Both the position numbers and the translations under genes were made by a program. From positions 614 through 64,613 of the forward strand of contig PLZF01000031.1 in NCBI GenBank assembly GCA_003152015.1: a stretch of 64,000 bases of DNA, read 5' to 3'. Shown here one piece after another: positions 2,389 through 42,423 of this stretch (position 1 is its first letter; every line of letters begins with the position of its first letter). Origin of the DNA: Acidimicrobiaceae bacterium (GTDB taxonomy: Bacteria > Actinomycetota > Acidimicrobiia > Acidimicrobiales > RAAP-2). The notes beneath the pieces were generated by a model. It was not told where the DNA came from, made no database searches, and saw nothing but the letters and a program-made list of their open reading frames with translations.

Positions 2389-3239
2389 GATGCCCGCTCC
2401 GCGGCTCTCACCGTGTTGCGCAACAACATGGCCCGGGTCATCGGGCCCACTCCGCCGATGCGGGGGGTGATCCACCCCGCCACCTCGGCTACTGACTCAT
2501 CGACATCGGACAACAGCTTCTTCCCTTCCCATGAGGTACCGGCACCGACCACTGCAGCACCGGGTTTGATCATCTCGGGCGTCACGAGACCGGCGCGACC
2601 GGCCGCGGCCACCACCACGTCACCTTGGCGGACCAGAGGTGTCATATCCCTGACGCCGGTATGAACCACCGTGACTGCGGCGTTGCACCCTTGTCGCTTG
2701 GTGGCCAACAAGAGGGACAGGGGACGCCCGATGGTCAGCCCCCGCCCGATCACCACCACATGTTTGCCCTCAACCGGGACGTCGTTGGCATGAAGCAGTT
2801 CGACGATCCCGGCCGGGGTACAGGGCAGAGGACCATTGGCTCCCATCACCAGGCGTCCCAGGTTCACCGGGTGCAGCCCGTCTACGTCCTTCTCCGGGTC
2901 CACCGCCAGCAGTACCTGCTCCTCGTCGAGCCCGGCCGGCAACGGAAGCTGCACCAGATAGGCGTGGACCTGGGGATCGGCATTGAACCGCGCCACCGCG
3001 GCGGCAAGCTCGGCCTGGGACACATCGGCGGGCAGGTGCTGGTGGGCCGAGTGAATGCCGACTTCGGCGCAGTCGGCGTGCTTCATGGCCACGTACCGCG
3101 AGCTCGGGCCATCGTCCCCCACCAAAATGGTCCCCAGCCCTACGGCCACTCCGGCGCTGGCCAGGCGGGCGACACGATCGGTGACTTCGGCCCGGATCCG
3201 GGCGGCCAGGAGTTCCCCATCGAGCAAGGTGGCGGTCAT
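2385..3239 (-). CDS. folD: Bifunctional methylenetetrahydrofolate dehydrogenase / methenyltetrahydrofolate cyclohydrolase
   Basis: [19 protein letters not shown]..., [58 protein letters not shown]; start refined inside the longer ORF. Confidence 0.95.
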
Positions 3240-38487: not shown

Positions 38488-38572
38488 CTCAGCCACCGCC
38501 GAATGGTACCGCCCGCCAGCACACCGCCCATTGCGTTCGTCAAGTGATCCGTGACGCGGCAAACTGAGACCC

Positions 38573-39874
38573 GTGACCGACGGGATCGAACCATCTGAGG
38601 GCGCCGAAGACACCCGTGCCCCGGCAAGCGACCCTCCCACCCAGCCGCACAGGGAGGTCACCCAGCGGGTGGCGGACGCCGACCGCGATCGGACGGTGAC
38701 GTCCCTCCGCGAGCACGTCGTTGTCGGAAGGTTGACGCTGGACGAATTCTCCGAGCGGGTCGACAACGCGCTCGTCGCCCGCACCCAGGGTGACCTCGAT
38801 GCACTCGTTGCCGACCTCCCGGCCCGAGCGGTACCCGAACCGGAGGCGACCCGCCGGCGCGCCCGGCGACGGGTCATTGCCGTCATGGGTGGGTCGAGAG
38901 CCAAGGGTCGGTGGCGGGCCAGTGGGCACACCACCGCCATCGCCGTCATGGGCGGCTGCCAACTCGATCTCCGACAGGCCGAGATCGAGGGATCCGAAGT
39001 GGTGATCAGCGCCTTTTCCATCATGGGCGGGATCGAAATAGTGGTGCCCGAAGGCATCGACGTTGAACTGGCCGGATTCTCCATCATGGGCGGGCGCCAC
39101 CTGAAGATCCGTGACGTCCCGGTGATCCCGGGATCCCCTCGGATCATCGTTCGAGCCTTCCCGATCATGGGCGGGGTGGAAGTCAAGAGTGCTCCGAACC
39201 GTCATGGCCGTGGACTGCCATCACACCTCGACGGCACGTCCCTCGACGCGGGGACCGGGTCACCGGTGCTGAGCGAGGGACCCGCTGGCCGGACTCCGCC
39301 CGATCGGACCCCGGAGACCATGTCCGGGGAGCCACATCCGGAAGAAGCCCCATCCCTTGCCGGTGACCGCACAGTGACAATTCTCTTTATCGACATGGTC
39401 GATTACTCAGGGATCACCGAGCGTCTCGGGGACCGTCTGGCCCATGCCCTGGTGACCGAGCACCACCGGATCGTTCGTTCCCTCCTCACCGGTCACGGGG
39501 GGCGTGAGGTCAAGGCGCAGGGTGACGGGTTCATGGTCGCATTCGGAGGAGCGGCCCGTGCTCTGCGTTGTGCCGCCGCCATGCAGCGCTCCTTTCGCGA
39601 GCACACCTTGGCCCACCCCGACCAGCCGATTCGGGTCCACATCGGGTTGCACACCGGGGAGGCCACCGAAACCGATGACGACTTCTTTGGTCACACGGTC
39701 ATTGTGGCCAGTCGCATCGCCGACATGGCCGGTCCCGACGAAATCCTGGTGTCTTCACTGTCCGAACAGTTGGTGGCGGGCACCGGAGAATTCCACTTCG
39801 GTGAACAACGGGAGGTGGTGCTCAAAGGGATGAGCCGCCTCCAACGTGTTGCCCCGCTCATCTGGGCCAACTGA
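38573..39874 (+). CDS. DUF1707 + LiaF-like C-terminal beta-repeat + class III adenylate/guanylate cyclase homology domain fusion
   Basis: DUF1707 (RVADADRDRTVTSLREHVVVGRLTLDEFSERVDNALVARTQGDLDALVADLP), five I/V-MGG repeats, then FIDMVDYSGITERLGD...EVKAQGDGFMVAFG...FGHTVIVASRIADMAGPDEILVSS. Confidence 0.85.
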   Translation: MTDGIEPSEGAEDTRAPASDPPTQPHREVTQRVADADRDRTVTSLREHVVVGRLTLDEFSERVDNALVARTQGDLDALVADLPARAVPEPEATRRRARRRVIAVMGGSRAKGRWRASGHTTAIAVMGGCQLDLRQAEIEGSEVVISAFSIMGGIEIVVPEGIDVELAGFSIMGGRHLKIRDVPVIPGSPRIIVRAFPIMGGVEVKSAPNRHGRGLPSHLDGTSLDAGTGSPVLSEGPAGRTPPDRTPETMSGEPHPEEAPSLAGDRTVTILFIDMVDYSGITERLGDRLAHALVTEHHRIVRSLLTGHGGREVKAQGDGFMVAFGGAARALRCAAAMQRSFREHTLAHPDQPIRVHIGLHTGEATETDDDFFGHTVIVASRIADMAGPDEILVSSLSEQLVAGTGEFHFGEQREVVLKGMSRLQRVAPLIWAN

Positions 39875-39884
39875 GTGACAGCGG

Positions 39885-41114
39885 TCAGCTGGTGGGCGGC
39901 GCGAATCTCCCCGCCGAGGTAGGGCCGGACGAGGATGGCGACTCCGCCATTGACGGCGGCGGTGACGGCGGGTCCATCCACGTGGCGAGATAGGGGCCGG
40001 TGGGGCCGAAACCGATACGGGTCATGGCCACCGGTCGAGGGGGGATGTCGAGATTGGGCGAATCGGAGTGCCAGGGGGTGTACAGCAACCACGCGCCGGT
40101 CGGGTCGGAGTAGACGGATTCCTCCCCGGGACCCTTACCCTGAGCGTTGGATGCCACCAGAGGTACCGATGAGGAGTCGGCACACGGTCCCATCGGACCC
40201 GCACAGCGCGCCGCTCCGATGGCGTAGTCCGGCGAATTGAACCAATTGCCCGAGTAGAACAACCAGTAGGTCCCGAGCACCTTCACCATGTCGGGCGATT
40301 CGACGATAGTGCCCTGCCAGGGCTCGTCGGGCTGCAGAATGGCCTTCGGCTTGGCGGTGAAGGCCATGCCGTCGCCGGTGAGTGGCGCTGACCAGATCAT
40401 TGTCGGTGTGGAAGACCCTCCGATGTTCTGGTCCGACTTCCAGATCATCCACATGGTCCCGTTGTCATCGGTGAACACCCGGGGGTCGATGGAACCACCC
40501 TGGCTGACCTGACAGATATACGGCTTGGCCATGGGGATGAACGGGCCGGTGGGAGACGACCCGGTGGCGGCTCCTATGCATTCCATGGCCGGGGAGGTCG
40601 ACTTCACCAGGGCGGTGAAGTACAACACGAATGTCGATCCGAAGCGGTGGAGGTCAGGTGCCCAGGTGAAGCCGGGCGCTGCCCATGGCGGCAACGTCGG
40701 CATGACATCGGTGATCGCTCCCCACTGGCCTACCGCGGTTCCCGATACCACCGGAACGTTCATGGTCGCCCCTGCACCACCCTCGCTGAGGATGAGGTCG
40801 TAACGACCCTTCCCGACGGTGAGGAACGGGTCGGACACATCGTGACCGACGTCATAGATCCGGGCCGGCGCCGACCGCATGGTGGTCGCGGGTGGGTCGT
40901 AGGCGTGGACGGGTGACGTGGGCATAGGAGCCACCCCCGCCCCACCCGCGGCCCCGTTCGGCGTCGACGCCCGATGGGCAGTCGCACTCGCCGAGGTGCA
41001 GGCGGACGCGGCAGTGGCCACCACCACCAGACCGACCATCATGGCGAACAGGCGGCGCGGCGGCCTCGGAACCACCGACGACCGGACGGCAGGACATCCG
41101 AGGTTTGGTTTCAT
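39885..41114 (-). CDS. Secreted/lipoprotein glycoside hydrolase family 43-like protein
   Basis: Signal/lipobox-like TAASAC; GH43 triad candidates VSDPF, SIDPRVFTDDNG, VESPDMVKVLGTYWLFYSGN. Confidence 0.85.
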   Translation of the reverse strand: MKPNLGCPAVRSSVVPRPPRRLFAMMVGLVVVATAASACTSASATAHRASTPNGAAGGAGVAPMPTSPVHAYDPPATTMRSAPARIYDVGHDVSDPFLTVGKGRYDLILSEGGAGATMNVPVVSGTAVGQWGAITDVMPTLPPWAAPGFTWAPDLHRFGSTFVLYFTALVKSTSPAMECIGAATGSSPTGPFIPMAKPYICQVSQGGSIDPRVFTDDNGTMWMIWKSDQNIGGSSTPTMIWSAPLTGDGMAFTAKPKAILQPDEPWQGTIVESPDMVKVLGTYWLFYSGNWFNSPDYAIGAARCAGPMGPCADSSSVPLVASNAQGKGPGEESVYSDPTGAWLLYTPWHSDSPNLDIPPRPVAMTRIGFGPTGPYLATWMDPPSPPPSMAESPSSSGPTSAGRFAPPTS

Positions 41115-41187
41115 GGGGACAGTCGACTCCGATACGACGCTCGGGAGTATCGCGGGACGACGACCCCCGCGACGGACAGGCTTCAGA

Positions 41188-42423
41188 TTACCGCTTCCCG
41201 TCGAGGTCGGATAACGCAGACCCGATTTCATGATCGGCCGAATCGCCCGTCAGGTCATCCCCGTTGACGAGGACCCGCGGGACCCGGGGACCGATGCCAC
41301 ACACCACCTCGTAGTTGATGGTGCCGAGCCGGTCGGCCCACTCGGTGGCGGTGATCTCTTCGCGTCCCTGCCGCCCGATGAGGACCACCTCGTCGCCCAC
41401 GGTGACGGGGGGAACGTCGGCCGGTCCGCAATCAACCAGGATCTGGTCCATCGTCACCACCCCGGCCAGCGGGCGCCTGACCCCTCCGATGAGCACCTCA
41501 CCGCCGGTGTCGAACAGCCGGCGGGGCACGCCGTCTGCATAGCCGATGGGAATCGTGGCCACTGTCGAGCGTTCCGCCAGCGGGCGTCGGCGCCCGTAGG
41601 ACGGCCGCTCCCCCTTGTCGAGCCAGCGGACAAACGACACCTCGGCCCGCAATGACAGCACCGGCTCGACCCGCCCTCCCCCGGTGGCCTGTGACAATTG
41701 GGTGGCCAACTCGGGGGTGGGGCACAGCCCGTAGAGGGCAATGCCGCACCTGACCATGTCCCTGCGAGCCGCCGGGAAGGCAATGGAGCCGGCCGAGTTG
41801 GCCACGTGGGTGAGAGGAGGCCGGAGTCCGGCAATGGTCAGATCGTCGAGAACCAGCCTGAACCGATCGAGTTGGGTGCGGGTGAACTCGATGTCGGTCG
41901 GGCCAACCCCATCGGCCACCGCCAGATGGGTCCACAGGGCCCCGAGCCGGAGCCGGGGATCGGCGGCAATGGCGGTGGCCAGGCTCACCGCCTCAGCCGG
42001 GTCGACCCCTACCCGGTGCATGCCGGTATCCACCTTGAGGTGGACGTCGACCGGGGACGCGTCTTCGGCGGCCACCACCCGTTTCAAGGCCTGAACTCCG
42101 GCATGGGTGTAGACCGTCGGCACCAATCGGCGAGCCACCGCTTCCTCCATGGCATCAACCGGGGGCTCGGACAGGAGCAGAATCGGGACGTCGATCCCAA
42201 CCTCTCGAAGGAGCACCCCTTCCTCCACCAGTGCCACCGCCAGCCACGTCGCCCCCCCGGCCAGTGCGGCCCTGGCCATGGGGAGGGAACCGTGCCCATA
42301 CCCATCGGCCTTGACCACGGCACAGAGCGCGGAGGAACCCACCATGCCGTTGAGAACCGACGCATTGCGCCGGGCGGCACCCACGTCGATCTCGGCCCAC
42401 ACCGGTCGCAGGCGATCAACCAT
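41188..42423 (-). CDS. alr: Alanine racemase
   Basis: RPVWAEIDVGAARRNASVLN, AVVKADGYGHG, HLKVDTGMHRVGV, THVANSAG, MDQILVDCG. Confidence 0.95.
   Translation of the reverse strand: MVDRLRPVWAEIDVGAARRNASVLNGMVGSSALCAVVKADGYGHGSLPMARAALAGGATWLAVALVEEGVLLREVGIDVPILLLSEPPVDAMEEAVARRLVPTVYTHAGVQALKRVVAAEDASPVDVHLKVDTGMHRVGVDPAEAVSLATAIAADPRLRLGALWTHLAVADGVGPTDIEFTRTQLDRFRLVLDDLTIAGLRPPLTHVANSAGSIAFPAARRDMVRCGIALYGLCPTPELATQLSQATGGGRVEPVLSLRAEVSFVRWLDKGERPSYGRRRPLAERSTVATIPIGYADGVPRRLFDTGGEVLIGGVRRPLAGVVTMDQILVDCGPADVPPVTVGDEVVLIGRQGREEITATEWADRLGTINYEVVCGIGPRVPRVLVNGDDLTGDSADHEIGSALSDLDGKR

Follow-up and report, generated by a model that had tools for sequence, protein, structure and literature searches.

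A DUF1707-Toastrack scaffold fused to a class III nucleotidyl cyclase homology domain in Acidimicrobiales

A single open reading frame in the window, the 64,000-nucleotide stretch of an Acidimicrobiaceae genome analysed here, appeared to join a DUF1707 domain, a LiaF-like β-repeat and a class III cyclase domain, raising the question of whether such a protein is genuine and what its enzyme might be coupled to. The frame starts with GTG and runs from 38573 to 39874 (+), encoding 433 amino acids, and the arrangement DUF1707-Toastrack-linker-class III cyclase over the whole gene is supported by Pfam and full-length homologues. The DUF1707 (SHOCT-like) domain occupies residues 32-83 (38666-38821, +; PF08044, E 2.3e-19, 69.6 bits against a curated cut-off of 27.6). 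The predicted LiaF_C/Toastrack-like β-helix follows at residues ~98-210 (38864-39202, +), where LiaF-like_C (PF09922) matches residues 119-174 with an E value of 9.2e-8 and a score of 32.4 bits, above its cut-off of 29. Its five [IV]MGG turns lie at residues 104, 125, 150, 171 and 198 (DNA 38882, 38945, 39020, 39083 and 39164), two bases or less from the positions in the original prediction. A linker of residues 211-263 (39203-39361, +) connects this half to the cyclase homology domain of residues about 264-433 (39362-39871, +), which was delimited by Pfam, phmmer, Foldseek and invariant columns and contains the Guanylate_cyc match (PF00211, residues 267-421, E 4.5e-17, above the curated cut-off). 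The predicted presence of all three domains in one frame is borne out, since each exceeds its Pfam cut-off, and so is the predicted lack of a transmembrane segment: none was convincing in the 433 residues, where the highest 19-residue Kyte-Doolittle mean was 1.62 at residues 140-158, a stretch modelled as β strands of the scaffold. Pfam recognised no ligand-binding domain in the protein.

The AlphaFold2 model, built on a 13-sequence alignment, follows the same layout. It has helices at residues 35-80 (35-50, 56-68 and 72-80, within DUF1707), an all-β region at residues ~98-210 with strands at 100-207, a disordered segment at 211-263 with pLDDT below 50 and a cyclase fold at about 265-431. The whole-chain pTM was 0.43, and the model gives low confidence in the arrangement of the domains towards one another. 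When the N-terminal half was modelled alone, its top fold match in the PDB was 4QRK, with a probability of 0.98 but an E value of 0.053 and a TM-score of ~0.35; 4QRK is one of the Toastrack structures named by Ravi et al. (PMC11237479). No significant sequence match to this half was found in the PDB.

Could two neighbouring ORFs have been fused by an assembly or sequencing error? A join between 39190 and 39370 had been raised as a possibility, and that region turned out to be the linker, whose low complexity is all that speaks for an artefact. The same 433-residue protein recurs at 92-94% identity in a further two genomes from the genus, and at least 20 genomes of the order, from 11 families, encode both halves as an uninterrupted frame. 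This continuity in independent assemblies of the same genus and in more distant genomes rules out an assembly or sequencing join, and we give an artefact practically no probability. A match at E <= 1e-40 was found in 27 of 398 genomes of the order, these 20 or more among them; in the window's own family, no sampled member from another genus has the fusion. The samples from the class and the phylum contained no full fusion outside the order; there, the cyclase half turned up joined to different partners, and the scaffold half on its own. The fusion is conserved across one order of Actinobacteria. Two loci deserve separate mention. L005, labelled Acidobacteriota, agrees in coordinates and percent identities with the order genome G205 and is probably a mislabelled MAG. 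In L110 (G038), the frame of the scaffold half differs from that of the cyclase half, reflecting a frameshift or a sequencing error.

The domains and the segments between them have evolved differently. We compared the window gene with L001 or L002, whose percent identities equal those of the two same-genus genomes and which may be the same genomes; with 28-36 nonsynonymous changes in all, the counts behind these ratios are small. The dN/dS values were 0.06-0.36 for DUF1707, 0.10-0.34 for the Toastrack region and 0.11-0.21 for the cyclase domain, 1-2 for the first 29 residues and 1.1-3.3 for the linker, which also differs in sequence and length among relatives. These ratios, calculated from the gene sequences, indicate three domains under purifying selection joined by an unconstrained tether.

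We then asked whether the two halves were joined once or repeatedly. In the cyclase-domain tree, 20 fusions fall in one clade (SH-aLRT 93), with the cyclases of G003/G063 and G059/G132 outside this main clade. In the N-terminal-half tree, only three label changes are needed between fusions and stand-alone forms. The trees hint at several independent origins, although the AU test does not reject one common origin (p 0.156). The stand-alone scaffold gene of G242 (L113) groups with the window clade with support of 98/90, and no cyclase remnant was found near it; to judge from its sequence, this close relative, which ends after Toastrack, is a probable case of secondary cyclase loss. Retention of the scaffold without the cyclase in G242 implies that the scaffold also serves some purpose by itself. 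Other stand-alone genes were also seen. In L115 (G010), a stand-alone DUF1707-Toastrack gene (2489-3136) lies directly upstream of the fusion gene on the same strand and pairs in the tree with the stand-alone gene of G623, a genome sharing only the phylum. The stand-alone scaffold ORFs of L088, L089 and L073, from other Actinomycetota, carry a second partial scaffold match, perhaps a duplicated Toastrack. The window genome itself (G000) has a sole other DUF1707 protein, on contig C67 at about 69309-69461 (L023); it contains the hydrophobic stretch KLIILLVVVVVMFVALSIY, which resembles a transmembrane helix, and no Toastrack domain by eye.

Whether the cyclase domain can be expected to work was judged from its catalytic residues. 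In the alignment of 13 sequences, the metal-binding D274 and D318, the ATP-specifying pair K314 and D370 and the transition-state R381 are invariant. At the site usually held by the transition-state Asn, the window protein has Ile; most fusions have I, V or T there, and L111 has Asn. The closest solved relative is Ma1120, a class III adenylyl cyclase of Mycobacterium avium (PDB 4wp3, 4wp9, 5d0e and 5d15), with ~37% identity and the same fold; the phmmer E value for the cyclase domain was 5e-31, and the cyclase model matched the Ma1120 structure 5d0h with a Foldseek E value of 6.8e-18 and a TM-score of 0.96 by target length. Like the window protein, Ma1120 has the Lys/Asp pair that specifies ATP, keeps the Arg and lacks the canonical Asn; unlike it, Ma1120 has Ala rather than Ile at that position, and its solved and assayed constructs carry neither DUF1707 nor Toastrack. 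Ma1120 is active and makes cAMP despite Ala at the Asn site (A164), and its A164N mutant lost most of the activity (PMC4215837). The Ile is therefore not evidence of a dead enzyme. Because the metal-binding Asp residues, the Lys/Asp pair and the Arg are kept, and the Asn is also absent from the active Ma1120, the window cyclase is probably a functional adenylyl cyclase, and the residues lead us to expect cAMP as its product.

How the fusion relates to known systems depends on the half considered. By Pfam, it shares LiaF_C/Toastrack homology with Bacillus subtilis LiaF and the VraT-like proteins of Staphylococcus aureus. Those proteins have transmembrane helices and act via a two-component system, unlike the fusion, which has no transmembrane segment and no histidine kinase gene nearby. 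Nearer to its N-terminal half are the stand-alone DUF1707-Toastrack homologues of 180-300 residues found across Actinomycetota. Ravi et al. unified DUF2154, DUF4097 and DUF2807 as Toastrack and described, N-terminal to it, SHOCT-like domains that the DUF1707 model picks up in part; they inferred an intracellular location for SHOCT-like plus Toastrack and proposed a sub-membrane assembly, with a role that includes the membrane localisation of "disparate catalytic" activities (PMC11237479). The SHOCT-like (DUF1707)-Toastrack proteins that they place with PSP systems have the same N-terminal half, likewise with no transmembrane segment, and no catalytic domain; the main text of that paper does not mention a cyclase. 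Rv0966c of Mycobacterium tuberculosis, whose mutants alter fatty acid import (PMC6368401), also shares DUF1707, whereas the catalytic domain is present only in the fusion; in M. avium, strains that have lost the homologue tolerate drugs and antibiotics better (PMC8557931). On the catalytic side, other actinobacterial and chloroflexotal class III fusions belong to the same cyclase subfamily, with the motifs VKAQGDGFM and LKG, and carry varied N-terminal modules that differ from the present one (FHA, SnoaL-like and kinase/ATPase, as read by eye from the sequence). In the literature searched, we found no paper combining DUF1707 or Toastrack with a cyclase, in line with the original statement that the architecture was not known as a described signalling protein. 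The pairing of DUF1707 with Toastrack is already described, and the cyclase fusion is the new part; the whole is apparently an undescribed architecture assembled from known modules.

The neighbourhood of the gene was examined for clues to its role. The window copy is an orphan between a divergent uracil-DNA glycosylase gene (tsaE/UDG by Pfam) and a convergent GH43 gene. The GH43 protein (39885-41231, -; Pfam 1.7e-33) has a lipoprotein-like ACTSAS near its N terminus. This neighbourhood is common to the same genus only and is not more widely conserved, so the UDG and GH43 genes carry little functional information. Among order-mates, a different setting recurs: 11 of them (L098, L102-L110 and L112, of which L105 is partial) carry the fusion within the same-strand series coxL-coxM-coxD-coxE-xdhC-[fusion]-mocA-coxG-ppx-aminotransferase, whose genes were assigned with Pfam and NCBIfam on L106 and, in the case of mocA, on L098. 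Where measured, the spacing between the stop codon of xdhC and the start of the fusion was 4, 4, 4, 6, -20, -20, 67 and 78 bp. The CoxL motif AYRGAGR could be read in L106, L108, L109 and L110, and we assign these clusters to form II. The enzymes of that form probably act on a substrate other than CO (PMC6794299). A cyclase gene is an unexpected member of a form-II CO-dehydrogenase-like cluster, here with xdhC on one side and mocA/coxG on the other. In G342, a cyclase-less scaffold occupies the same slot, and in G003, G018 and G056, ppx was seen as the sole neighbour from the cluster. About half of the fusions lie outside cox clusters. The window genome gave no COXG match and a single VWA_CoxE match, whose type recurs in almost every relative checked; lack of COXG rules out the association as a universal one. 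None of 14 stand-alone DUF1707-Toastrack genes in other Actinomycetota was near cox genes, so the association looks order-specific. Within the order it is genuine, yet the fusion can do without the cluster.

The gene also seems to carry a promoter of its own. Comparison of homologues pointed to CAAACT at 38560-38565 (+), 7 nt before the start codon, as a -10-like element. Of 23 homologues, 17 have A.ACT at 4-12 nt ahead of the start, with a spacing of exactly 6-7 nt in most, and its conserved form is NANACTga; a naive binomial test gives p 1e-32, a value that ignores the relatedness of the homologues. The element is rare ahead of other starts in the window, and it is kept in unrelated flanks and even inside the cox cluster. 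The pattern suggests the -10 box of a leaderless actinobacterial transcript, and the fusion gene is probably expressed from this putative promoter.

What might such a protein do? We favour, with about even confidence, a peripheral module in which a flexible linker holds a soluble adenylyl cyclase to a scaffold of SHOCT-like and Toastrack domains, producing cAMP near the membrane under the control of assembly. On the inner side of the membrane, the DUF1707/Toastrack half would assemble, by self-association or with a partner, raising the local concentration of cyclase domains and promoting their pairing. The active sites of class III cyclases form at the dimer interface, so that pairing by the scaffold would switch on cAMP synthesis. 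The cAMP may then be read by CRP-like proteins, for which four cNMP-binding domains in the genome are candidates. The anatomy is better matched by assembly-driven pairing across a floppy linker than by rigid transmission of a signal, and we also count the clade of 20 that holds most fusion cyclase domains in favour of this explanation. Against it weigh the retention of the scaffold alone in G242, the statistically weak Toastrack fold match and the low whole-chain pTM. The same long neutral linker that argues against rigid transmission means, however, that the scaffold might only localise the enzyme, and a constitutive or weakly active cyclase merely held at the membrane, with no sensing, would suit the variable linker, the Ile in place of the catalytic Asn and the lack of a recognised ligand-binding domain. 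We consider this quite improbable, since the other catalytic residues are all invariant in the family and replacement of the Asn is compatible with activity in Ma1120.

The original prediction was an envelope-stress-to-second-messenger sensor, in which DUF1707/Toastrack would sense membrane damage and signal it through cAMP. Toastrack domains do belong to Lia/PSP systems (PMC11237479), and the phenotypes of the Rv0966c mutants and the M. avium homologue point in the same direction. However, soluble, membrane-proximal proteins that pair DUF1707 with Toastrack are already known (PMC11237479), so the domains alone do not indicate stress. No two-component genes and no PSP or Lia genes, including pspA, pspC and liaRS-like genes, stand beside the fusion in the window or the relatives examined; the conserved neighbourhood in relatives is instead the molybdenum-hydroxylase/CoxDEG maturation cluster. 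The gene context thus gives the prediction no support, and we hold an envelope-stress role, for which nothing specific speaks here, to be rather unlikely. A link to the molybdenum hydroxylase (form-II CO-dehydrogenase-like) seems to us similarly doubtful. The scaffold would then join CoxDEF/CoxG in maturation and membrane docking, and the cyclase would report the state of the enzyme or quinone-linked respiration as cAMP. The position of the fusion between xdhC and mocA-coxG in the 11 order-mates, often 4 bp from xdhC, the cyclase-less form in the same slot of G342 and the view that CoxG docks CODH at the membrane (PMC4240915) all favour this link. Against it, the fusion is under selection in a window genome that has no COXG and only the widespread type of VWA_CoxE, about half of the fusions are outside clusters, the gene keeps its own -10-like element even inside them, and the co-conservation of ppx and the aminotransferase indicates that the block may be plain synteny. 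Given its frequent home in the molybdenum-hydroxylase operon of relatives, redox or energy state is at least as good a guess for the trigger as cell-wall damage.

In the order-mates, a signalling gene has been added to a form-II CO-dehydrogenase-like cluster. We tentatively suggest, as a rather unlikely possibility, that in Acidimicrobiales a Toastrack scaffold lying close to the membrane switches a soluble adenylyl cyclase directly through its assembly and converts the state of a membrane-associated molybdenum enzyme or of respiration into cAMP within one protein, with no transmembrane receptor. Known Toastrack and DUF1707 proteins have no easily measured output; here they are fused to an enzyme with a simple assay, for cAMP, and the fusion could act as a reporter of what the scaffold responds to.
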